NCBI GenBank assembly: GCA_946699065.1
Contig: CAMPDV010000308.1
Span: forward strand, 248,001 to 312,000
Direction: 5' to 3'
DNA length: 64,000 nucleotides
From: Loxodes magnus
Lineage: Eukaryota; Ciliophora; Karyorelictea; Loxodida; Loxodidae
Below are positions 14,000 to 58,990 of the stretch, piece after piece; the first letter of the stretch is position 1, and every line of letters starts with the position of its first letter. The notes under the pieces were generated by a model. It saw only the letters and a list, made by a program, of their open reading frames with translations. It made no database searches and was not told the origin of the DNA. The position numbers and the translations under genes were made by a program.

Positions 14000-15271
14000 T
14001 CATGTGTTAGTGAATATTTTTGAACTTGTAGACCAATCAGCGAGAAGATTTCCATCAACATAGTTATTTGCGTTAAGAAGAAAATCATTCAGTACGAAAA
14101 CAATGCCAATAACTATAACATTTCTTTTACTCTCAAGTCTCATAATTAGATCTGAAGTTCGACTATCCTTTATTTCAACTCTATACTCCGGTTATGCAGG
14201 TTCTCCATCTATTGGCTCATAACTGTAAGTTGTAGGATCATAAGATTTGAAACTTCCTTACTTTACTTTGGCTTATATCAATATATGCCAACTATCTTTG
14301 TGAGCTGTGATCTTTTCTGAGTAACATTCATCAGCAGCATAAAAAATGCTTGGAGATAAAAAGATAGCTTTCGCCCAATTTTATATTCCGAAATGAGTTT
14401 CATCTAATTTATAATGACCGGAAGGAGGTTTAACTACTTACCCATTAACTGTTTTTTCGCCGCTACATACAAGACCTCCCTACATAATCGATTCAAGATA
14501 GACATATTTCGTTCCATGCCAAGCAGGATCCCAATTCGTCTCAAATTCTGAACTATTGACTAATGCTAAAGAAATGGAATCTAAATTCTATAAATTACGG
14601 AGAATTCTAACTCCAATAATATTTTAACCGTGAGTAATGTGCTTTACATTGGTAGCCAATCCATTTGAAATTAGTTTAGATGCGAGAGAATCAATTTTAT
14701 CGTTCATTCCTGTTGTAATTAGCTACTCAATGTCTGTCGTTTTTGCTTCTTCAAATGCTGTTCCGTTCCATTTATTTTGAACTTTAGTATCTACCCCATA
14801 TTGAATTAATAGCTCAACTATAGTTTAATGACCGTAAAATGATGCAGCATGAAGTGGTGTACTTCCACATTTGTGAAGTTCATTCACACTAGCACCCATT
14901 TTAAGAGCAAGCTAGCAAACGTCAAAATATCCCGATCTAGCTGCTATATAAAGTACAGTTCTGCCAATATCGTCATTTTCATCAACATCATCTAGAAATT
15001 CTCGACATTATTTCAAGAGTCTAACATTTCCAATTAGAGCATAATAGAAATTGGGCTTAAACTTCTTATTTTTATCATAGCAATATTCACATGCCAAAGT
15101 AGCACGTCTTCTCATATCTCTATCAGAACTAGCAATTTTATTTCTAAACGCCGTTTTTACTTAGCTTTAGCTTGCACCCGAAGTTAACTAGAGAACTTTG
15201 AATGGATTAGCTCTAATTGCACTATCCTCTGGATCTACAGTATATCGTGAAGTATAAGATTTTTCTACCAT
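14000..15271 (-). CDS. Ankyrin-repeat protein with ADP-ribosyltransferase-like domain, copy A
   Basis: 423 residues, ATG at 15271, TGA at 14002-14000, no frame break. Residues ~20-65 (NPFKVLQL, AFRNKI, DRDMRRRA) look like a degenerate J-domain helix pair lacking HPD. Residues ~75-185 are about three ankyrin repeats (GRTVLYIAARSGYFDVCQ, GSTPLHAASFYGHQTIVE). Residues ~245-410 start DPAWHGTKYVYLESIMQGGL and continue NWAKAIFLSPSIFYAADEC, a layout reminiscent of the HGT...GL and YF.S elements of PARP-type ADP-ribosyltransferases. The ART call is tentative. The gene could equally encode an uncharacterised domain found with ankyrins in protists. No in-frame TGA is used as Trp here, unlike its paralogue at 29510-30781. 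Confidence 0.8.
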
Positions 15272-18200
15272 TTAATATACTTTAAAAATTAAAGCCACAC
15301 TTAAATACTAAGCTTAAACACTTAAACACTCACATAGTATTAATTATATTTAATTCTAAAAATAAATCAGTTAGATATTCTTATCTCACTTATAACGTGA
15401 ACCTTACTTTCTGATATCTCATTTTTATTAAATAATTTAAATGTTTTAGATATGATAAAATTAATTAAATGCTGATAGGATTTTATTAGATAACTCCTTA
15501 TTTTACTTCTTAATACTTTTTTAATGATTTATAATTTTTTGTTCTTATTAGATTTAAATATCTTGAAGAAAAAATTTATAAGTTTTGGCTTATATAAGGA
15601 TTATAACTTAAATATGTGTATTGAGTTTAATTTTAAGAAATTAAGGTAATGAAATAAAACTTTGATGTTAGATGGTTATAATTGATAGCTTTGATATAAA
15701 TTAAATTATTTAGTTATAGTTCAGCTTGTGTTTAAGCTTGATAGTAATACCATTAGAGTAATATACCTAAACTGAAAGAACTAGATAGTATGAAATGTTA
15801 TTCCAAAGTTCTAGTTAGTAACAGAAATGTTTAATTGCAGTTGCTTCAAGCTCTAAATCAATATTTGTTACTACTCTGAAAATTGGATAAAGGTATAGAA
15901 GTCTTAAAAATAGCTATAGCTAATATCTCATTTTATATAAGAAGTAAATAGTAGATCTAGTAAAAGGATGTGATGATGGGCATTTAAATAAAATGACAGC
16001 TATAGACAGAAGCTAGTAGAGTGAATCAATAGACAGTTAGAAAATCGAGTAAGAGGAGAGTAAATATATTAAGATTTTAAAGTCTTTGTTTATTAAATAA
16101 TAAATAGATTTTATTTTTTCATCATATAAGATTAAGTATATAAGCATCTAAATACATAAAAGATCTTGCTTCATAGCTATAATTTAACATTCTAAAGAAA
16201 ATTTAAGTATAATATGCCAATCATTATGCTATTAAAGTTATTAATGATAATAGGTTGTTATGTCTTAGAAAATAAATAACAAATCCGAGAAAATAGAGAC
16301 TAACGAAGCATCAAAAACTTGGCAAAGAAGGGCAGGAGATAAATCAGACTAGAAGAGAAAAGAATAAATCACCGAAATGTTCCTCATTGTTTCAAAGTAA
16401 ATGACTAAAAGGAATCTAGGAAAAAATATAAATAATAGAAAGGAAAATGAATCAATATTTGAATAGTATGAAAAAATGAAGAAACTACTCAGCAAGCAGG
16501 ACAAGGTTATCTACATTTCTCGTTTTAGAATAAAAGATTTAATTAAACACATATTGAATAACTGTACTTAGAAACGATTTACTTATGGAAGTAAATTGTT
16601 CAAAATAAAAGCTTAGCATAAGAATAATTGTGGTGTTGATCCTAAAACGATTAAATTCAGGAAGATATAATGAACAATGAAGAAAATATGACTTATAAAT
16701 TGTCTATTTAAATGAATAATTAAATAGAAATTTAAATAACTGAGACATAAAAGGATTGGAAAAACTTGAAAAATTTATTATTCCGAAATAGAAGTGAAAT
16801 ATAAGATAGAAGGTGTAATTATTACAATCTTCACAACATCTAATAAAGTACAGCATTGATTGAAAAAACTTAAAAGTAAGAGGATTAAAGGAACCTTAAG
16901 AGAATTAGCAAGAATCTTTATAAATAAAAAAAGAACCAAAAAAATAAATGATCCTATTCAGATTAGATCTGAGAGAGATGGATAGGGAATGGTAATATGA
17001 AAAAAAATTAAATGGATTAGATTCTTAAGCAACTCTAACATCAAAAAGGAAAACAAAGTTGAGAAAATGAGTATCAAAATAATGATCTAACTGTTTTGAA
17101 TGCTCAATTTAGAACTTTTTAAAATAAGATTAGTGGAGAGTAAAATTATTAGACTAAGATCAAGAAAGTGATATGAATAGATGACAAAATGAGATTTTAT
17201 AAGAAGAATGTTTTTCTTTTCAAACATTTTGAATTGTTCCAAGTGATTAAATGTTTTTTTAAAATCAAAAACGATAAAAATTTCTGATCAAATGGATTTA
17301 AAGATTACATAATACTGCTATGGGGTTTTAGAGATTAAAAGGAAAAATAAATTTCTAAGATATAAGAGATATTTATTAGTATAATAGGTGTTTTTAAGAT
17401 AATTCTGCATAAAAAGAGATGAATGAAACAGCATAGTAAAGAGGTTGGATTTAAGTATTTCAGCATTGCAAAAAATTGTTTTTTAGTTTTGAGATGAAAA
17501 ATGCAATTCTTTGATATTTAAAACTATATGCTGATTTTTTATACTTCTAAAATAGAGTATGGAGGTATTTTATTTCCTCAAGGATTCATAAAGGATTACA
17601 AGATTTTGAATAGAACTGGCAGTCATACTAACTTCTATAGAAAGACTTTAAAGAAGTTACGTCAATTTTAGCAAATTAAGTAATATTGATTGCAATAAGA
17701 TAACATACAAACTCATTTGGTAATAAAGTTAATAAATAAATCTTCTAGAAGATAGTTAAGTATATTACTAGTAGAGTAAGATCAATTTATACAGAATATT
17801 GCTTGATATTTCTTAAATAAAATTTAATAAATAGAGTAAGAAAGTTTTAGTGAATGAAGATCATAGCATGCTATTTTCTAAAGTGATTCCAAGTATAAAG
17901 ATGGTTGGGAATTATATTTTCTATTTCCTTTTAAGATAGAGAATGTAAAAGGTATTAAAACAAAGAAAATTGATAATTTATATTTTACAGAAATCTATCA
18001 TTCAAAATCAATAAGAGTATAACAAATAGAAGTTTTAGATAAACACCTAAACATTGCTCAAAAGTTATTTGATATTACGATAAAGCTATGAAGCTTCTAA
18101 TTATTTTTACCTAATGTAGAAACAAATCAAATGTATAAATTTATAAAATTAATACATATGTGACATAAATTTCTAATATGAAAAGAGAAAAAATTTAAAT

Positions 18201-47638: not shown

Positions 47639-50600
47639 TCATCTCTAGAAATAATTTATATTTCCTATATATCCATCAAATTCTTTTGGCTTTCCTATCT
47701 CTTCATCTCCTATCTTAATCTTTATTTTTTTGAATCTTTATTTTAATTCTTATAACTAAGATTTTAAAATTTAACTAAAAGCGCCAAACTATAACTTTCT
47801 CAAATTCTTAAAAATAGGATAAGGGAATTTAAATGATTCTCAAAGTGGTGAGTCCTATCTTATTAATTAGTTAGTTGTATATAACTCTAATTTCTCTAGA
47901 TAATGACAGTTTTAAATAACTAAAGCAATAATACTATCCATTAACTCTATATCATAAAGCTTTAAATTTCTAAGTGTTTTAATTTGTATTATTTCTCTAA
48001 TATGATCTTCATTAAATTCAAAATCACTTCCTAAACTAAAAGATTTTAAATTTTAACTATTTTTTCTGATAGTTTTAATAGTTTTATGACTTAAGTCTTA
48101 AATATGAGAAAGTTCTATTAAGCTAAGCTTCTTGCATTTTTTGAAAATAATTCATAAAGTATCATCTGATAATAAAGGTAAATTTTGCAAACTTAGCTGG
48201 TTCAGTTATTAACATAAATCACCTATTTGCCAAATAGAAGCATTTCCAATTAGTTCTAAATTCCTTAATTATAAGCATTGCAACTAAGGCGTTTTTTATA
48301 ATAGTAATAGTAAGGTATCATCATTAAAATACTAGCAATTACTAATATTTACTTACAAGAGTTAAACAAAATTCTATTGTAGAAAGTCAGTAAACGACTA
48401 TACTTAGAAATTTCCACTTAAGTTTAGCTATTATAAATGATATCCTCTAATCTTATTTAAAATAGAATCATCTCTATCCTTTATTTAAAGATCGAATTTT
48501 ATAAGATTAGGGCATTATTTAATAGTTTTAGAGGAAATTTAATTTTAATTAATTTCTATTTCCTATATTGATTTTCCATTAGATCTTAGAAATTTCATGA
48601 TATATTTGTTTTCTATGGATTAACTTTTTAGTTTTAAAACTTTTAAATTTATCTTTTTACAAAAATTTGATAAAAAACTGCCTGTAAATGATTTAATATT
48701 TTAATCATTTTAATAATGCTCTATTTCAAGAGTGTCTAAAACGGAACAGCTTTAAAGGAATTATAAGTCATCATCATTTCATAAGCCTCTTAGAACTATC
48801 TTTTTAAGATTACTTAGAGGAAATTAGTCATATATAATAAAATACTTATCATAAGTATATAAATAAAACTCATTAAATGCATAATGTGATTAGTTCAAAT
48901 ACTATTTTATTAAAATAGATAAGCAGAGCTACTATTAAATTTAGTTCAGTACATTTTAAGAAAATGATTTGGCTTTAATAAAGAGACTTTGCACGTTGGA
49001 GTATACTATTTGTAAAAAAAGTCACTTTAATTTGGAAATTAAATGATTCTTCTCAAAAAATTCAAATTTAATTGTTATTTAATCATAGAAAAAAGTGGAA
49101 TATCTAAAAACCTTACTAGTTTTCCTAAGAGAAGAAATATCTTGTTAATTTAAAAATTTTCCAATATTTTAATATTCATAGCTTCTAATTTTCTAAATAA
49201 ATCAGATTTTAGAATATTATACTTGTGCTTATTAAGGACTTTGAAAAGAAAATTTTTAGCCTTTAATACTCGGTTCATAAATCAAATTATCTAAATAATA
49301 AACTCCTAAAATCTATTAAATTTATGATCTTCTAAAAATAGATTAAAATTAAATACCTGAACTTATTTTTATAAATCCACTTCCTTAAAGCATATCATTT
49401 TTCCATTCACCATCTAAAATTTCAAGTTTATAATAGTAAAGTATTCCATTTCCTTATCTTTAACCATTCTCAAAATAACCTTCATAAATGTCTCCGTTTT
49501 CATATTTAAAAACTCCATTTCCGTTTCAAGGTTCATTTCACTTTCATTCGCCTTCTCAAATATTCCCATTTTTATATTTTAGTTTTCCTTATCCTTATCT
49601 TTAACCATTTAACATTTAACCTATATAAATGTCTCCGTTTTCATATTCAAAAACTCCATTTCTGTTTCTAGGTTCATTTCACTTTCATTCGCCTTCTCAA
49701 ATATCCCCATTTTTATTTATTAGTTTTCCTTATCCTTATCTTTAACCATTCTCAAAATAACCTTCATAAATGTCTCCGTTTTCATATTTAAAAACTCCAT
49801 TTCCGTTTCAAGGTTCATTTCTTTATCATTCGCCTTTTCAAATATCCCCATTTTTATATTTTAGTAATCCTTATCCTTATCTTAAACCATTTAACATTTA
49901 ACCATAATAAATGTCTCCGTTTTCATATTCAAAAACTCCATTTCTGTTTCTAGGTTCATTTCACCTTCATTCGCCTTCTCAAATATCCCCATTTTTATTT
50001 ATTAGTTTTCCTTATCCTTATCTTTAACCATTTTCAATATGAACTTCATAAATGTCTCCGTTTTCATCTTCAAAAACTCCATTTCCGTTTCAAGGTTCAT
50101 TTCACTTTCATTCGCCTTCTCAAATATTCCCATTTTTATATTTTAGTTTTCCTTATCCTTATCTTTAACCATTTTCAAAATAACCATAATAAATTTCTCC
50201 GTTTTCATTTTCAAAAACTCCATTTCCGTTTCAAGGTTCATTTCACTCTCATTCGCCTTCTCAAATATTCCCATTTTTATATTTTAGTAATCCTTATCCT
50301 TATCTTAAACCATTTAACATTTAACCATAATAAATGTCTCCGTTTTCATATTCAAAAACTCCATTTCTGTTTCAAGGTTCATTTCACTTTCATTCGCCTT
50401 CTCAAATATCCCCATTTTTATTTATTAGTTTTCCTTATCCTTATCTTTAACCATTTTCAATATGAACTTCATAAATGTCTCCGTTTTCATCTTCAAAAAC
50501 TCCATTTCCGTTTCAAGGTTCATTTCTTTATCATTCGCCTTCTCAAATATTCCCATTTTTATGTTTTAGTTTTCCTTATCCTTATCTTTAACCATTTTCA

Positions 50601-53600
50601 AAATAACCATAATAAATTTCTCCGTTTTCATATTCAAAAACTCCATTTCCGTTTCAAGGTTCATTTCTTTATCATTCGCCTTCTCAAATATTCCCATTTT
50701 TATATTTTAGTAATCCTTATCCTTATCTTAAACCATTTAACATTTAACCATAATAAATGTCTCCGTTTTCATCTTCAAAAACTCCATTTCCGTTTCAAGG
50801 TTCATTTCACTCTCATTCGCCTTCTCAAATATTCCCATTTTTATATTTTAGTAATCCTTATCCTTATCTTAAACCATTTAACATTTAACCATAATAAATG
50901 TCTCCGTTTTCATCTTCAAAAACTCCATTTCCGTTTCTAGGTTCATTTCTCTATCATTCGCCTTCTCAAATATTCCCATTTTTATATTTTAGTTTTCCTT
51001 ATCCTTATCTTTAAGCATTTTACATCTAACCTATATAAATGTCTCCGTTTTCATATTCAAAAACTCCATTTCCGTTTCAAGGTTCATTTCTTTATCATTC
51101 GCCTTTTCAAATATCCCCATTTTTATATTTTAGTTTTCCTTATCCTTCTCTTTAACCATTTAACATTTAACCTATATAAATGTCTCCGTTTTCATATTCA
51201 AAAACTCCATTTCTGTTTCTAGGTTCATTTCACTTTCATTCGCCTTCTCAAATATCCCCATTTTTATATTTTAGTAATCCTTATCCTTATCTTTAAAAAT
51301 TTACAATATAACCTTCATAAATGTCTCCGTTTTTATATTCATAAACTCCATTTCCGTTTCAAGGTTCATTTCTTTATCATTAGCCTTCTCAAATATTCCC
51401 ATTTTTATATTTTAGTAATCCTTATCCTTATCTTTAAAAATTTTACATCTAACCTATATAAATGTCTCCGTTTTTATATTCAAAAACTCCATTTCCGTTT
51501 CTAGGTTCATTTCACTTTCATTCGCCTTCTCAAATATTCCCATTTTTATATTTTAGTTTTCCTTATCCTTATCTTTAAGCATTTTAAATATAACCTTTAT
51601 AAATGTCTCCGTTTTTATATTCAAAAACTCCATTTCCGTTTCAAGGTTCATTTCTTTATCATTCGCCTTTTCAAATATCCCCATTTTTATATTTTAGTTT
51701 TCCTTATCCTTCTCTTTAACCATTTACAAAATAACCATAATAAATGTCTCCGTTTTCATATTCAAAAACTCCATTTCCGTTTCAAGGTTCATTTCTTTAT
51801 CATTCGCCTTCTCAAATATTCCCATTTTTATATTTTAGTTTTCCTTATCCTTATCTTTAAGCATTTTACATCTAACCTTTATAAATGTCTCCGTTTTTAT
51901 ATTCAAAAACTCCATTTCCGTTTCAAGGTTCATTTCTTTATCATTCGCCTTCTCAAATATTCCCATTTTTATATTTTAGTTTTCCTTATCCTTATCTTTA
52001 AGCATTTTACATCTAACCTTTATAAATGTCTCCGTTTTCATATTCAAAAACTCCATTTCCGTTTCAAGGTTCATTTCACTTTCATTTGCCTTCTCAAATA
52101 TTCCCATTTTTATATTTTAGTAATCCTTATCCTTATCTTTAACCATTTTACATCTAACCTTTATAAATGTCTCCGTTTTCATATTTAAAAACTCCATTTC
52201 CGTTTCAAGGTTCATTTCACTTTCATTCGCCTTCTCAAATATTCCCATTTTTATATTTTAGTTTTCCTTATCCTTATCTTTAACCATTTAACATTTAACC
52301 TATATAAATGTCTCCGTTTTTATATTCAAAAACTCCATTTCTGTTTCTCGGTTCATTTCACTTTCATTCGCCTTCTCAAATATCCCCATTTTTATATTTT
52401 AGTTTTCCTTATCCTTATCTTTAACCATTTAACATTTAACCTTTATAAATGTCTCCGTTTTCATATTTAAAAACTCCATTTCCGTTTCAAGGTTCATTTC
52501 TTTATCATTCGCCTTCTCAAATATTCCCATTTTTATATTTTAGTTTTCCTTATCCTTCTCTTTAAAAATTTACAATATAACCTTCATAAATGTCTCCGTT
52601 TTCATATTTAAAAACTCCATTTCCGTTTCAAGGTTCATTTCTCTATCATTCGCCTTCTCAAATATTCCCATTTTTATATTTTAGTTTTCCTTATCCTTCT
52701 CTTTAAAAATTTACAAAATAACCATAATAAATGTCTCCGTTTTCATATTCAAAAACTCCATTTCCGTTTCAAGGTTCATTTCTTTATCATTCGCCTTCTC
52801 AAATATTCCCATTTTTATATTTTAGTTTTCCTTATCCTTATCTTTAAGCATTTTACATCTAACCTTTATAAATGTCTCCGTTTTTATATTCAAAAACTCC
52901 ATTTCCGTTTCAAGGTTCATTTCTTTATCATTCGCCTTCTCAAATATTCCCATTTTTATATTTTAGTTTTCCTTATCCTTATCTTTAAGCATTTTACATC
53001 TAACCTTTATAAATGTCTCCGTTTTCATCTTCAAAAACTCCATTTCCGTTTTAAGGTTCATTTCACTCTCATTCGCCTTCTCAAATATTCCCATTTTTAT
53101 ATTTTAGTTTTCCTTATCCTTATCTTAAACCATTTAACATTCAACCTTCATAAATGTCTCCGTTTTTATATTCAAAAACTCCATTTCCGTTTCAAGGTTC
53201 ATTTCTTTATCATTCGCCTTCTCAAATATTCCCATTTTTATATTTTAGTTTTCCTTATCCTTATCTTAAACCATTTAACATTCAACCTTCATAAATGTCT
53301 CCGTTTTTATATTCAAAAACTCCATTTCCGTTTCAAGGTTCATTTCTCTATCATTAGCCTTCTCAAATATTCCCATTTTTATATTTTAGTTTTCCTTATC
53401 CTTATCTTAAACCATTTAACATTCAACCTTCATAAATGTCTCCGTTTTTATATTCAAAAACTCCATTTCCGTTTCAAGGTTCATTTCTTTATCATTCGCC
53501 TTCTCAAATATTCCCATTTTTATATTTTAGTTTTCCTTATCCTTATCTTTAAGCATTTTACATCTAACCTTTATAAATGTCTCCGTTTTTATATTCAAAA

Positions 53601-55096
53601 ACTCCATTTCCGTTTCAAGGTTCATTTCTCTATCATTCGCCTTCTCAAATATTCCCATTTTTATATTTTAGTTTTCCTTATCCTTATCTTAAACCATTTA
53701 ACATTTAACCATAATAAATGTCTCCGTTTTCATCTTCAAAAACTCCATTTCCGTTTTAAGGTTCATTTCACTCTCATTCGCCTTCTCAAATATTCCCATT
53801 TTTATATTTTAGTTTTCCTTATCCTTATCTTAAACCATTTAACATTCAACCTTCATAAATGTCTCCGTTTTTATATTCAAAAACTCCATTTCCGTTTCAA
53901 GGTTCATTTCTCTATCATTAGCCTTCTCAAATATTCCCATTTTTATATTTTAGTTTTCCTTATCCTTCTCTTTAAAAATTTACAAAATAACCATAATAAA
54001 TGTCTCCGTTTTCATATTCAAAAACTCCATTTCCGTTTCAAGGTTCATTTCTTTATCATTCGCCTTCTCAAATATTCCCATTTTTATATTTTAGTTTTCC
54101 TTATCCTTATCTTTAAGCATTTTACATCTAACCTTTATAAATGTCTCCGTTTTTATATTCAAAAACTCCATTTCCGTTTCAAGGTTCATTTCTCTATCAT
54201 TCGCCTTCTCAAATATTCCCATTTTTATATTTTAGTTTTCCTTATCCTTCTCTTTAAAAATTTACAAAATAACCATAATAAATGTCTCCGTTTTCATATT
54301 CAAAAACTCCATTTCCGTTTCAAGGTTCATTTCTTTATCATTCGCCTTCTCAAATATTCCCATTTTTATATTTTAGTTTTCCTTATCCTTATCTTTAAGC
54401 ATTTTACATCTAACCTTTATAAATGTCTCCGTTTTTATATTCAAAAACTCCATTTCCGTTTCAAGGTTCATTTCTCTATCATTCGCCTTCTCAAATATTC
54501 CCATTTTTATATTTTAGTTTTCCTTATCCTTATCTTAAACCATTTAACATTTAACCATAATAAATGTCTCCGTTTTCATCTTCAAAAACTCCATTTCCGT
54601 TTTAAGGTTCATTTCACTCTCATTCGCCTTCTCAAATATTCCCATTTTTATATTTTAGTTTTCCTTATCCTTATCTTAAACCATTTAACATTCAACCTTC
54701 ATAAATGTCTCCGTTTTTATATTCAAAAACTCCATTTCCGTTTCAAGGTTCATTTCTCTATCATTAGCCTTCTCAAATATTCCCATTTTTATATTTTAGT
54801 TTTCCTTATCCTTATCTTTAAGCATTTTACATCTAACCTTTATAAATGTCTCCGTTTTTATATTCAAAAACTCCATTTCCGTTTCAAGGTTCATTTCTCT
54901 ATCATTAGCCTTCTCAAATATTCCCATTTTTATATTTTAGTTTTCCTTATCCTTATCTTAAACCATTTAACATTCAACCTTCATAAATGTCTCCGTTTTC
55001 ATATTTAAAAACTCCATTTCCGTATCAAGGTTCTTTTCTTTATTACTCGTCTTATTAAATATGCTTTAATTTTTTTTTAAAAGTTTTTCTTTTCAT
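47639..55096 (-). CDS. Giant MORN-repeat / F-box / leucine-rich-repeat protein
   Basis: ATG at 55096 (MKRKTFKKKLKHIQQDEQQR), then from about residue 28 a MORN array: 40 copies of a 141-bp unit, each two motifs of the type YENGDIYEGYFENGQ and KYKNGNIWEGEW. After the array (49.36 kb) comes a likely 25-nt intron, a linker, an F-box-like helix pair (IKILENF then NQQDISSLRKTSKVF), and from ~48.83 to 47.7 kb AMN1-type leucine-rich repeats (NLKKIVLRGL, LQQLNLSGN, LNQLSLQNLPLLSDDTL). TGA at 47641-47639 ends it. Roughly three TGA codons per unit encode Trp, so well over 100 in the gene. A one-base frame change lies in an A/T run near 49152-49160. MORN arrays bind membranes or tubulin-rich structures; F-box plus LRR suggests an SCF ubiquitin-ligase substrate receptor. 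The combined role is inference. Confidence 0.8.
49332..49356 (-). other. Candidate 25-nt intron in the MORN/F-box/LRR gene
   Basis: On the minus strand it begins GTATTTAATTTT and ends CTATTTTTAG. Removing it shifts the frame into one that reads FMNRVLKAKNFLFKVLNKHK and leads into the F-box. GT-AG pairs of 13 or 19 nt nearby would give the same frame change, so the exact intron is not fixed. Confidence 0.4.
49440..55030 (-). repeat. Tandem array, 141-bp unit x about 40 (coding, MORN)
   Basis: The period is exactly 141 nt (47 codons) throughout, so the reading frame is preserved. Units differ mainly in three variable positions per unit. From ~52.7 kb to 55.0 kb neighbouring units recur in the same order (types ending TCTAACCTTTATAAATG, TTCAACCTTCATAAATG, TTTAACCATAATAAATG), which shows recent multi-unit duplication. 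The low-coordinate end of the array is more diverged. Confidence 0.9.
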
Positions 55097-55342
55097 TTCT
55101 TTTTTATTAAATTTTTAATTTTTTTTTCAAGTTTTTATAAATTCTATTGTAATTAATTTCAAAAATCTAAAATTTCTAATTTATTTTTTTCATTTTTATT
55201 ATGTATTTTTTATTTTTGAATTATATTAAAGTAAGGTAAATTTTTATGAAAATTATTTTTTTATTTATGAAAATAAGAAATAAAACATTGAATATAATTA
55301 GATTAAATAGTAAAAGACTATATAAGTACAATTTTAAAGCAG

Positions 55343-55654
55343 ATGAAAAAAGGATATCAAGAAGTATCAATTCATTGAAAGATAGAAATTTGAAAAGATT
55401 ATAGGGCTAATAAAGGATAATTCATTTGAATTAATAAAAACTTATTAAAAAGAAAAAGATATAGAAATAATAATGAAATGGAAATATAAGATAAAATTCA
55501 AAAGGCTTATAGTGAGTGAATCGTAAAAAGAAGAATAATACATAGTGATATACTGAAGTAGAAGGAAGAAGAAGAATAACAAGAGATTGACGAAATAATA
55601 GAGGAATATTTATTACCACAAGGGATCTTGGAGGAAGAATTTGTATTCAATTGA
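55343..55654 (+). pseudogene. Retroelement ORF 3' fragment ending at stem-loop
   Basis: 103 codons, ATG to TGA at 55652, with an acidic C-terminus (EEEEQQEIDEIIEEYLLPQG). The stop lies just before the shared stem-loop (about 55661-55696: GCGCACC and GGTGCTACGC) and TTTAATC tail. By position it is the 3' end of an element of the same class. The four internal TGA codons and short length suggest decay. Confidence 0.35.
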
Positions 55655-55777
55655 CTTTTTATAGGTCTGCGCACCATTGTGGTGCTACGCGCACTTTAAT
55701 CAAAGTTTCTTTTTTCATTTCAATATAATTTTCAATCTCATTTATTTATGTACTTATTTAATTTTAGATGATTTAAT

Positions 55778-56690
55778 TCACTGTAAAGAAACAATAGGAT
55801 TTCTTTACTGAACTTCTAATGATAGTAATATAAATAATTTAATAACTTAAAGCTTTTCAAATTCTGTAGGTCCACCTGGTAAAGAAGATAAACCAAGATT
55901 TACTGCTAATATTATCTAAAATTTTTCAAGATTTATCTAGTCTCCTATATGTTTTTACGTTTCTTCTTTTTTTCTTCGAACATGTCTAGTACTTGTTAAT
56001 TTGAATTTTAAGGATTAATTTCTAGTATATCTTCCTTTAGATAGTTCATATTTATTACCACTTATTGAGGTATTTTTTTATCTTCATTTGTTTGATATAA
56101 TTTGTGAACTTTTTTTATCTTTTTAGATTATGTTCTATCTTACTGTCAATTTAATTTAATTTAATTTTTTTTCTTTTTTAGTTTTTTTACAATTTATTTT
56201 AATATTCAAGTAGGTTCATTTAAACCGTCTTATAATTTTTTCCTATTGTTTTATGAAAAGTGAAAGACTTATTTAGATACCCCATTTTTCTTTTTTCTAG
56301 CAGATTTTTGATAAAGTCTTTTACCTAAGCATCTTTTAGGATTCTTTGTTCTTCTTATGACGATTGAATTAAATTTTCAAACTCGTAATTTGCCCAGACT
56401 ATTTTGGCTAAAGTTTATTTATTTATCACAATATTTGCTTGGAATTTTTGGTTCTATTTTTTAATATTTATACTAATATATATCTTTCTTTTTAGTATTG
56501 CCCACATACCTCAATTACGAGAGATCTATCTTCTACACCATTTTTTGTATAGTCTACATATATCATTTTCTAACGAGTGTCGTACCTTTAAAGTCTATGC
56601 AATCCCATTAAATTTGGCTCTTTGTCTAAACAGGTAACAAATTTCCTATTTTCTGTGTTTATTGTATCTTAGATAGTTGAGTGGATCCAT
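55778..56690 (-). CDS. Unrecognised basic protein with coiled-coil character
   Basis: ATG at 56690 opens MDPLNYLRYNKHRKQEICYL, continuing protein-like with few TGA codons (ANYEFENLIQSSQEEQRILK, KMGYLNKSFTFHKTIGKNYK). After a one-base change it reads LKEDILEINPQNSNQQVLDM, and after another VNLGLSSLPGGPTEFEKL to TGA at 55780-55778. The segments are convincing as protein but match no family I know. It could be a host gene with base-call errors or a decayed one. Its start lies 74 bp from the divergent ORF1-like start at 56764, so the two may share a promoter region. Confidence 0.45.
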
Positions 56691-56763
56691 AATAAATGAT
56701 TCCAGTAATTAAATTCTAAAAATATTCATAAATATATCTTTTAAAAATTATATTATATGTAAA

Positions 56764-58990
56764 ATGGCACCTAAAAACAACAATCTCCAAACTAGATAAA
56801 TAAAATACGATAAGAAACATAAATTGATCCTTAACATCTACAAAACAAAAATCAAAACAATGAATTAAATAAGATATCATAAATAGACTCTCTGAAGGCA
56901 AATATATTCAATAATCCAGCAAACTGAATAAAGATTACGAAGAATAATCTCTGAAAAGAACTAGGAAATGTAAATTAAAATGAACTATTATCCCATGGAT
57001 GCAGAGACAGATAGAGAAGAAATGAATTAAGCATTGAGAATTACTCTCTTCATAAACTAATATGGGACAAACAAAATAAAATTGAAGTCATTTTAATTAA
57101 TTATGTTATGTATAAAATTTTATGAAGATAAAAAATGAAAATTTGCTTTTGATTAAACAAAAGGCTTAGGAAAATAAATTAAATATAAAGAAACAAAAAA
57201 AAGTTATCTATTCTTTTAAAATAGGAGAAAGGTTCTATAAAAAGTAAAGATATTTAACAAAAAATACTAAAGAACAGATTAGCGTAGGAAATTAATCTTA
57301 TTTTAAGCTAAATTAAGTGAGTGTTTTAGCAATTAAAAAAGAAAGCTAAAAATAAAAAAAATTTGGTAAAATCTAGAAGAAACTATTTTGAGTTTAGAAA
57401 GAGAACTTAAATTTAGAGGTGCAATCAGAATTCTTAATAAACAGAAATTAGTAAAAAGAGACTTAATTTCAGCATATGAATCTAGCAGAATATTCACAAA
57501 TGCAATATAAGTAAGAAAAAATAAAATCCCTATCAAAGTAGCTAAAAATAGCAATTTAATGAATCTATGAAAAAAACGGAATAAAAAATGCAGCTGGATA
57601 TTTAAATACTAAAAATTATTTTAAATAAATATTATCGCTACTACGAAACCTTGAGCGGATGATTTAATCCTAATTTCAGATAAAATAAACATGAATTCAT
57701 TTATTTAAGCATCTTGCAAAGTTTTTAGTTGAGTAAAATTATCTATCAATGTAGAAAAGTGCGAATCATCTGCTTTTTAAAGAAAAACAAAAGTCGAAAT
57801 TATTCTTTAAAAATTACTTTGAATAACATATAGGGTCGAATAATATAACATACTTGGGATAAAAATTTATTGAATATGAATACTATAAATCTCACTTTAA
57901 TTAAATCTATAAAAAGTAAAGAAATTGTGTAAATGATGCTATTTTGTAACTATCTAAATATTAAAATGTAACACCTTAAATTATAAACAGATTTTTCGAT
58001 CATTTATTCTTCCAAAAGTAGAATAGTGTTCAGAAGTAATTCCTTGAACTATCATTCGAGGAATTTAAAAATTAAAAATAATATTCATGCAAGTTAAAGA
58101 AAAGTAGCAAACTAGACCTTACAAAGTTCGAAGCAGTTTTTTAATTAATCTTGTTTCATAGATCTAAGTTGATTATCATTTGAATACTACATTGTAATTA
58201 AATACATAAAATTCTATATCAAAATAAAAATCAGAAACTTAATTACAACCTGATTCGGATATTGCTTTTCTTTTTAATAGATCTAAGAGCAATAACTTAG
58301 ACTATTTAAAAATTCTTTAGAAGTTATCCAAATGCTTTTAAATAAATTTAGAAAATACTTATAAAAGCAAAGAATTTGTTAAAGAATCTAAAATTTTTAT
58401 TTAAAAGAAATTCTACCAAGATGCAGGGATTCGGATGAGTGATATGCCTACAATAATTATTTATTTTGGAGAAATTTAAAACGATACAGAAAATTTTTTA
58501 TTATACACATACAACACTTAACAAGAACTAAACAAGAGAAATAATTTCAATATTAAAACTAAGAATTTTCTGTTACAAATTTTAATATTATTTGAAGAAA
58601 AGACATCATAAAATAAAGCATTCAGAAATTTGCAATTGTGGAGAATTGGATGTTTTCGAACATGTTGAGCAATGCGAATCTTTAAAAGATTTGATTGAGG
58701 AATTTAAAGATTTAAAAAACTATGATTTACTCAAACTTGCGACTTATAATTAAAATTACCTTAATAAAAATTTCCCAATCTGAAAATAGTAAGAACAGAT
58801 AGATTTTAGAATAAAATTTTCCAATAAACTACTTCGAAGAATAAATCTAATTATTCAACAAAATGAAGAATTTTTATAAGAAATATTGAATTAAGAAAGC
58901 TTTGGAAGTTATAATGATGATGAAAAGGAAGATAAAACAGATATGGAGCAAGATAATTTATCAGGAATTATACTAAACTTACTTATTACC
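56764..58990 (+). mobile_element. Non-LTR (LINE) retrotransposon fragment with RT
   Basis: Starts with an ORF1-like stub (MAPKNNNLQTRQIKYDK, then the family motif YYPMDAETDREE near 57.0 kb) without a knuckle. Further on is the reverse transcriptase palm: WADDLILISDK near 57.65 kb (the YADD-type catalytic motif with a TGA-coded Trp in place of Tyr), LSINVEKCES (motif D) and YNILGIKI (motif E). Then come the PDSDIAFLFN block near 58.25 kb and a C-terminal Cys/His block CNCGELDVFEHVEQC near 58.64 kb. RT motifs A and B and the endonuclease are not recognisable, and frames change several times. It is therefore a rearranged, inactive LINE. Copies of its C-terminal part are at 24.3-25.1 and 28.45-29.1 kb. 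Confidence 0.7.

Follow-up and report, generated by a model that had tools for sequence, protein, structure and literature searches.

A candidate F-box/LRR gene with a long MORN-repeat arm and its family in the genome of Loxodes magnus

Introduction

F-box/leucine-rich repeat (LRR) proteins such as FBXL2, FBXL17, SKP2, TIR1 and COI1 share an architecture in which an LRR horseshoe comes after an F-box-like segment. They usually possess one substrate-binding module, which is located behind the F-box. MORN-only proteins (TbMORN1, TgMORN1 and PfMORN1) are built from arrays with a β-meander fold. The gene analyzed in this study lies on a stretch of 64,000 nucleotides from the karyorelict ciliate Loxodes magnus (assembly GCA_946699065.1, contig CAMPDV010000308.1, positions 248,001 to 312,000), which as a whole is referred to as the window. 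It consists of a single open frame of 2,485 codons (NCBI table 27), in which about 80 MORN repeats are followed by an F-box-like segment and LRRs. The gene probably encodes a substrate receptor of the SCF (Skp1-cullin-F-box) type with a very long MORN arm and is part of a large family. In the best reading, the MORN arm of this family is fast-changing, the F-box-LRR end is stable and the family is lineage-expanded.

The window protein differs from FBXL-type proteins in the long MORN arm ahead of the F-box and in an F-box of its own that is too diverged for Pfam. It shares the β-meander array fold with the MORN-only proteins, but differs from them in the fusion to the F-box/LRR part and in the number of repeats (about 80, compared to a known range "from 2 to over 20"; PMC7725318). 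Junctophilins and plant phosphatidylinositol phosphate (PIP) kinases also join MORN repeats to another module, but the partner domain is a different one (PMC7725318). A preliminary description of the locus regarded the architecture as unfamiliar among described SCF receptors. In searches of the open-licence literature, no description of a MORN-F-box-LRR family was found, and neither "MORN" nor "F-box" occurs in the main text of the L. magnus genome paper (PMC11441545); the novelty is provisional, since the genomes of other ciliates were outside the comparison. A large family with a second, much longer and faster-changing arm before the F-box would represent another strategy for the construction and diversification of ubiquitin-ligase receptors, and this in a group of ciliates with little-known cell biology.

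The MORN array

Tandem Repeats Finder detected a unit of 141 bp in 39.9 copies between positions 49440 and 55062, with 92% match and 0% indels. The unit length corresponds to 47 codons or two MORN repeats, and 40 units therefore to about 80 MORN repeats. The Pfam MORN model matched the window protein with 330.5 bits (cut-off 22.5; E-value 9.6e-103). The number of about 80 MORN motifs given in the preliminary description was confirmed.

A structure model of residues 1670–2485 (predicted local distance difference test, pLDDT, 82.2; predicted template modelling score, pTM, 0.69) comprises the MORN meander, a low-confidence linker, the F-box helices and the LRR part. A β-meander fold was predicted for the last MORN units, with strands up to residue 1940; the evidence for this fold covers residues 1670–1940 only. 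MORN1 crystal structures matched this model in Foldseek with an E-value of 2.6e-17, and chains of radial-spoke, axonemal and junctophilin proteins were also among the matches.

The variability across the window units is highest at unit positions 15, 17, 19 and 21. Positions 14, 16 and 20 are fixed or almost fixed, and position 18 is M, F or I. In the model of residues 1670–2485, the variable positions sit on a predicted strand. Positions 17–19 were found to be variable in all four arrays compared, namely that of the window and those of the related loci L010, L017 and L019.

It had been proposed initially that the receptor is held at a membrane or at the cytoskeleton by its MORN arm. MORN proteins occur at junctions, radial spokes and cytoskeletal structures, and this speaks for the proposal, as do the radial-spoke, axonemal and junctophilin chains among the Foldseek matches; fold similarity is, however, uninformative on location. 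TbMORN1 is reported to have interacted with individual phospholipids but to lack membrane or vesicle binding (PMC7725318). MORN repeats are described in the same source as protein-protein interaction modules, and the membrane or lipid binding that is often assumed for them is doubted there (PMC7725318). For these reasons, membrane tethering by the MORN arm is not to be taken for granted. Fixation to a membrane or to the cytoskeleton is rated as rather doubtful.

The gene family in the L. magnus genome

The macronuclear assembly of L. magnus has been described with a size of 706 Mbp (PMC11441545); the assembly searched here comprises 705.7 Mb in 7,843 contigs. The last 567 amino acids of the window protein matched at least 77 places (weakest match 165.5 bits), which is a lower bound as 77 out of 2,456 first-look candidates were scored. 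Clusters of matches are found, for example, on contigs C308, C270, C203 and C641. The gene, at first taken for a single unusual one, is hence one member of a large family.

MORN-like repeats upstream of the matches were counted by regular expression. At least two repeats in frame were found in 34 of the 44 examined loci, the window's own included. In five loci, MORN-like repeats are present in another frame only (L012, L013, L034, L035 and L050), and in a further five none or one was found within 1.2–1.5 kb (L014, L024, L025, L047 and L052), whereby the matches of L024 and L025 start inside the LRR part (query residue 99). The changes of frame between arm and F-box in some members may be due to short introns or broken genes. 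The mean intron length in L. magnus is 19.3 bp (PMC11441545).

The order of MORN repeats, F-box-like segment and LRRs in one gene, as stated in the preliminary description, is supported at the sequence level by the open frame and by its recurrence in the 34 loci. Two separate neighbouring genes for the MORN and the LRR part were rejected, since the same fusion recurs in frame in the relatives.

In a tree of 40 rows, the MORN-less loci L047, L052, L060 and L061 form one group (support 100/99). Two changes of MORN presence or absence were counted on this tree, the second one being L014, compared to a mean of 4.8 after shuffling (0 of 500 shuffles were as low). Seven loci including L009, the window's own copy, were left out of the tree, the root of which is arbitrary and the bootstrap of which had not settled.

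No match to the family profile was found in 18 loci around other MORN arrays (L001–L008 and L064–L073), some of which may miss gene ends. Such arrays lie on C161, C288, C668, C1056 and other contigs, several of them with a period of 138 bp as judged by eye; within the stretches analyzed, this F-box/LRR part was not found downstream of them. Other F-box genes (L058, L059, L062 and L063) were seen by eye to carry different partners, such as a kinase-like sequence after the F-box in L062.

Variation among the MORN arms

The ratio of replacement to silent change among the units was 2.2–2.7 in the window array (38–39 units, the count of 39 including and that of 38 excluding the degenerate last unit) and 1.6–1.8 in L010, compared to 0.69 in L017 and 0.78 in L019. 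Codon bootstrapping resulted in a range of 1.11–7.68 for the window and of 0.83–4.18, spanning 1, for L010. The numbers of distinct variant codons (silent/replacement) were 6/52 in the window (P 0.03) and 10/62 in L010 (P 0.1), and the same test yielded P 0.75 for L017 and P 0.61 for L019; these P values assume one mutation bias and are uncorrected across the four tests. The excess of replacement in the window and L010 arrays is suggestive only. Positive selection was rejected as a feature common to all arms, since replacement exceeds silent change in only two of the four arrays.

An array of this kind could also be a passively expanding tandem repeat that stays in frame, with a length and variable positions of no selected function. 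This would fit the richness of the L. magnus genome in tandem repeats (PMC11441545), the two arrays in which replacement is not above silent change and the different array lengths among the members, for which one walk gave 39 (window), 27 (L010), 17 (L017) and 24 (L019) double units per arm, with lower numbers in other members. Against it stand the lack of indels in 40 copies and the retention of frame and MORN skeleton in distant members, so that passive expansion is considered somewhat unlikely.

The LRR part and the F-box-like segment

The LRR part was matched by PF24758 with an E-value of 0.001 in the whole protein and of 3.5e-6 when scanned alone (27.3 bits; cut-off 27). Among the PDB entries, the family profile matched FBXL2 (2.3e-33), FBXL17 (6.4e-28) and TIR1 (1e-13) as well as COI1 and SKP2, mostly over the LRR. 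For the model of the last 567 amino acids (pLDDT 82.0; pTM 0.76), the best Foldseek match was TIR1 (E-value 3.1e-12, 566 columns, TM-score 0.52); COI1 reached a TM-score of about 0.5 and FBXL2 was found at rank 6. The TIR1 and COI1 matches span 554–583 columns, whereby the residues aligned are not displayed and the confidence of the F-box is moderate. TIR1 was also matched by the model of residues 1670–2485 (E-value 3.6e-9). Pfam, profile and predicted fold thus agree on an LRR horseshoe of the FBXL/TIR1 type.

The putative F-box of the window protein is identified via homology with its relatives and via structure prediction. In an alignment of 40 members (the window and 39 of the 43 other loci; L013, L018, L024 and L025 were left out), PF12937 (F-box-like) was found in 12 and PF00646 (F-box) in nine members at E-values up to 1. 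When members were scanned singly, an F-box match just ahead of the LRR was found in 13 of 29 (window not counted): seven out of ten at E-values up to 0.1, and four out of ten and two out of nine at E-values up to 1. In L044, a member with in-frame MORN repeats, the F-box reached 24.7 bits and is over the cut-off of 20.5. In a genome search with PF12937 (cut-off 24.3), C155 (L060; 33.2 bits) and C231 (L061; 32.9 bits) were among the best matches. Both genes are without MORN repeats and start with the F-box. L060 scanned alone was over the cut-off for PF00646 (32.8 bits) and PF12937 (32.6 bits). It matches the window protein with 30% over 442 amino acids (E-value 2e-43), starting at the second F-box helix, and the family profile with 356 bits from model position 25, the first helix included; L060 is therefore a member of the family.

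The hydrophobic F-box positions are conserved among the 40 members, which are 28–98% identical to the window protein. In two structure models, helices are predicted at this segment at about residues 1973–1979, 1984–1993 and 1995–1998, followed by a strand. The absence of an F-box fold, which had been named beforehand as a refutation, was therefore not observed, at least in the predicted structures: helices are placed where an F-box is expected. The F-box-like segment of the preliminary description hence stands with regard to the relatives over the Pfam cut-offs and the predicted helices, but it lacks a Pfam match in the window protein itself.

Several points weigh against an F-box of SCF type. 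No Pfam F-box match at E-values up to 1 was found in the window protein, either as a whole or for its C-terminal part, or in its nearest relatives L010 and L011. Twelve of the 13 single-member matches fall below the Pfam cut-off, and the PF12937 search also yielded matches in two of 14 control genomes, both bacterial and both under the cut-off. In the model of the last 567 amino acids, the F-box region has a pLDDT of about 54–82, and the F-box alignment of the family profile to FBXL2 contributes only 1.5 bits. LRR proteins without an F-box closely match the same model (NLRP9, 2.7e-9; ribonuclease inhibitor, 1e-6), and therefore the LRR carries much of the Foldseek match. Moreover, F-box proteins outside of SCF complexes exist.

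The F-box could thus be degenerate in the window branch, and the protein a MORN-LRR scaffold no longer working in an SCF complex. In addition to the missing Pfam matches in the window protein, L010 and L011, this would be in line with the position of the clearest F-boxes in the distant members L044, L060 and L061, and with a ratio of nonsynonymous to synonymous substitution rates (dN/dS) of 0.90 between the C-terminal parts of window and L010, which is based on 14 differences only. However, the same ratio is 0.49–0.55 in comparison to L011, L012 and L015. L015, which is 66% identical to the window protein, retains F-box matches (E-values 0.012, 0.033 and 0.23, all under the cut-off), and the conserved hydrophobic positions and predicted helices likewise argue against degeneration. 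A degenerate F-box is regarded as unlikely.

Comparison of near-copies

Pairs of nearly identical loci with different arrays make the array turnover directly measurable. L010 (C1422) is a near-copy of the window gene, either an allele or a paralog. The 2 kb upstream (window 55097–57096) are 96–100% identical, the F-box/LRR part differs at 14 of 1,701 bases (99.2% identity) and about 1.35 kb downstream are 99–100% identical. In contrast, the last nine full units of the arrays differ at 12–17 of 141 bases, and the 1.35 kb of array compared are 87–93% identical. No exact unit common to the window (38 units) and L010 (26 units) was found. L017 and L019, located on different contigs, have F-box/LRR parts with a single difference in 1,698 bases, and again no exact unit was found to be common to their arrays (17 and 24 units). 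In both near-copy pairs, divergence is far greater in the MORN arm than in the F-box/LRR end.

That the array length and the difference to L010 are partly assembly artefacts is improbable, since with about 10% substitutions per unit, unbroken frames in both arrays and flanks of 96–100% identity the differences are unlike consensus errors.

In L014, the second half of the match is 95–99% like the window gene and the first half 59–83%, without MORN repeats upstream. This mosaic looks like gene conversion as judged from the sequence. Together with the nearly identical F-box/LRR parts and the differing arrays, it shows that arm and F-box/LRR end have had separate histories.

The duplicated block extends beyond the gene, as the 2 kb upstream are common with L010. 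Stretches related to this region were seen by eye to precede L012 and L013 as well. No Pfam match at E-values up to 0.01 was found in three frames of positions 55700–57201.

Proposed function

In the genome, 11 matches to Skp1 over the cut-off and 15 matches to cullin, nine of them near full length, were found. The parts of an SCF complex therefore exist in L. magnus, which does not by itself make the window protein a member. As an SCF-type receptor, the protein would bind Skp1 by its F-box and thereby a cullin, and it would act in a ubiquitin ligase. Binding partners would be expected both for the LRR horseshoe and for the MORN arm; those of the arm are most likely proteins. The arm may also allow the receptor to dimerise or to sit on a larger assembly.

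A more far-reaching and quite speculative reading, which we consider improbable, is that a constant F-box-LRR effector end is combined with an individually diversified MORN recognition arm, and that the loci direct degradation at different partners. Each locus would then keep its F-box/LRR end or convert it towards its relatives while the MORN array expands and changes. The changes would concern strand positions 15, 17 and 19 and the turn at 21–22 of the 47-residue unit, which should be exposed due to their alternation.

Coordinates and reading frame

The features of the gene are summarized in Table 1. In karyorelicts, NCBI table 27 is used, with UGA read as stop or Trp (PMC11441545). Past the stop TGA of the gene, more TGAs follow in the same frame.

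Table 1. Features of the MORN-F-box-LRR gene in the window.
Feature	Position	Strand	Remarks
Whole gene	47639..55096	-	ATG to stop TGA, 2,485 codons, no intron required
N-terminal basic leader, residues 1–24 (MKRKT...)	55025..55096	-	Near-copy L010 (read in L055) and L011 have a similar leader
MORN array, residues 25–1904, 40 double units of 47 aa, last one degenerate	49385..55024	-	Repeat finding, Pfam, models
Diverged end of the MORN meander, residues 1905–1940	49277..49384	-	Predicted strands reach model residue 271
Linker, residues 1941–1965, partly low confidence	49202..49276	-	pLDDT <50 at model residues 276–293
F-box-like segment, residues 1966–2010	49067..49201	-	Relatives and predicted helices; own Pfam match absent
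LRRs and C-terminal tail, residues 2011–2485	47642..49066	-	Pfam, profile search, predicted fold

Because TGA is the only stop, several extra frames are free of TGA over the array. These frames are located at 48601–55473, 49361–55216 and 50466–55343 on the plus strand and at 49285–55092 on the minus strand; one of those on the plus strand has 2,291 codons. The minus-strand frame of the gene was chosen due to its MORN match and its relatives. A gene finder averse to in-frame TGA could pick the wrong strand at this array. Elsewhere in the window, ankyrin repeats above the Pfam cut-off were identified at positions 14003–15385 on the minus strand.
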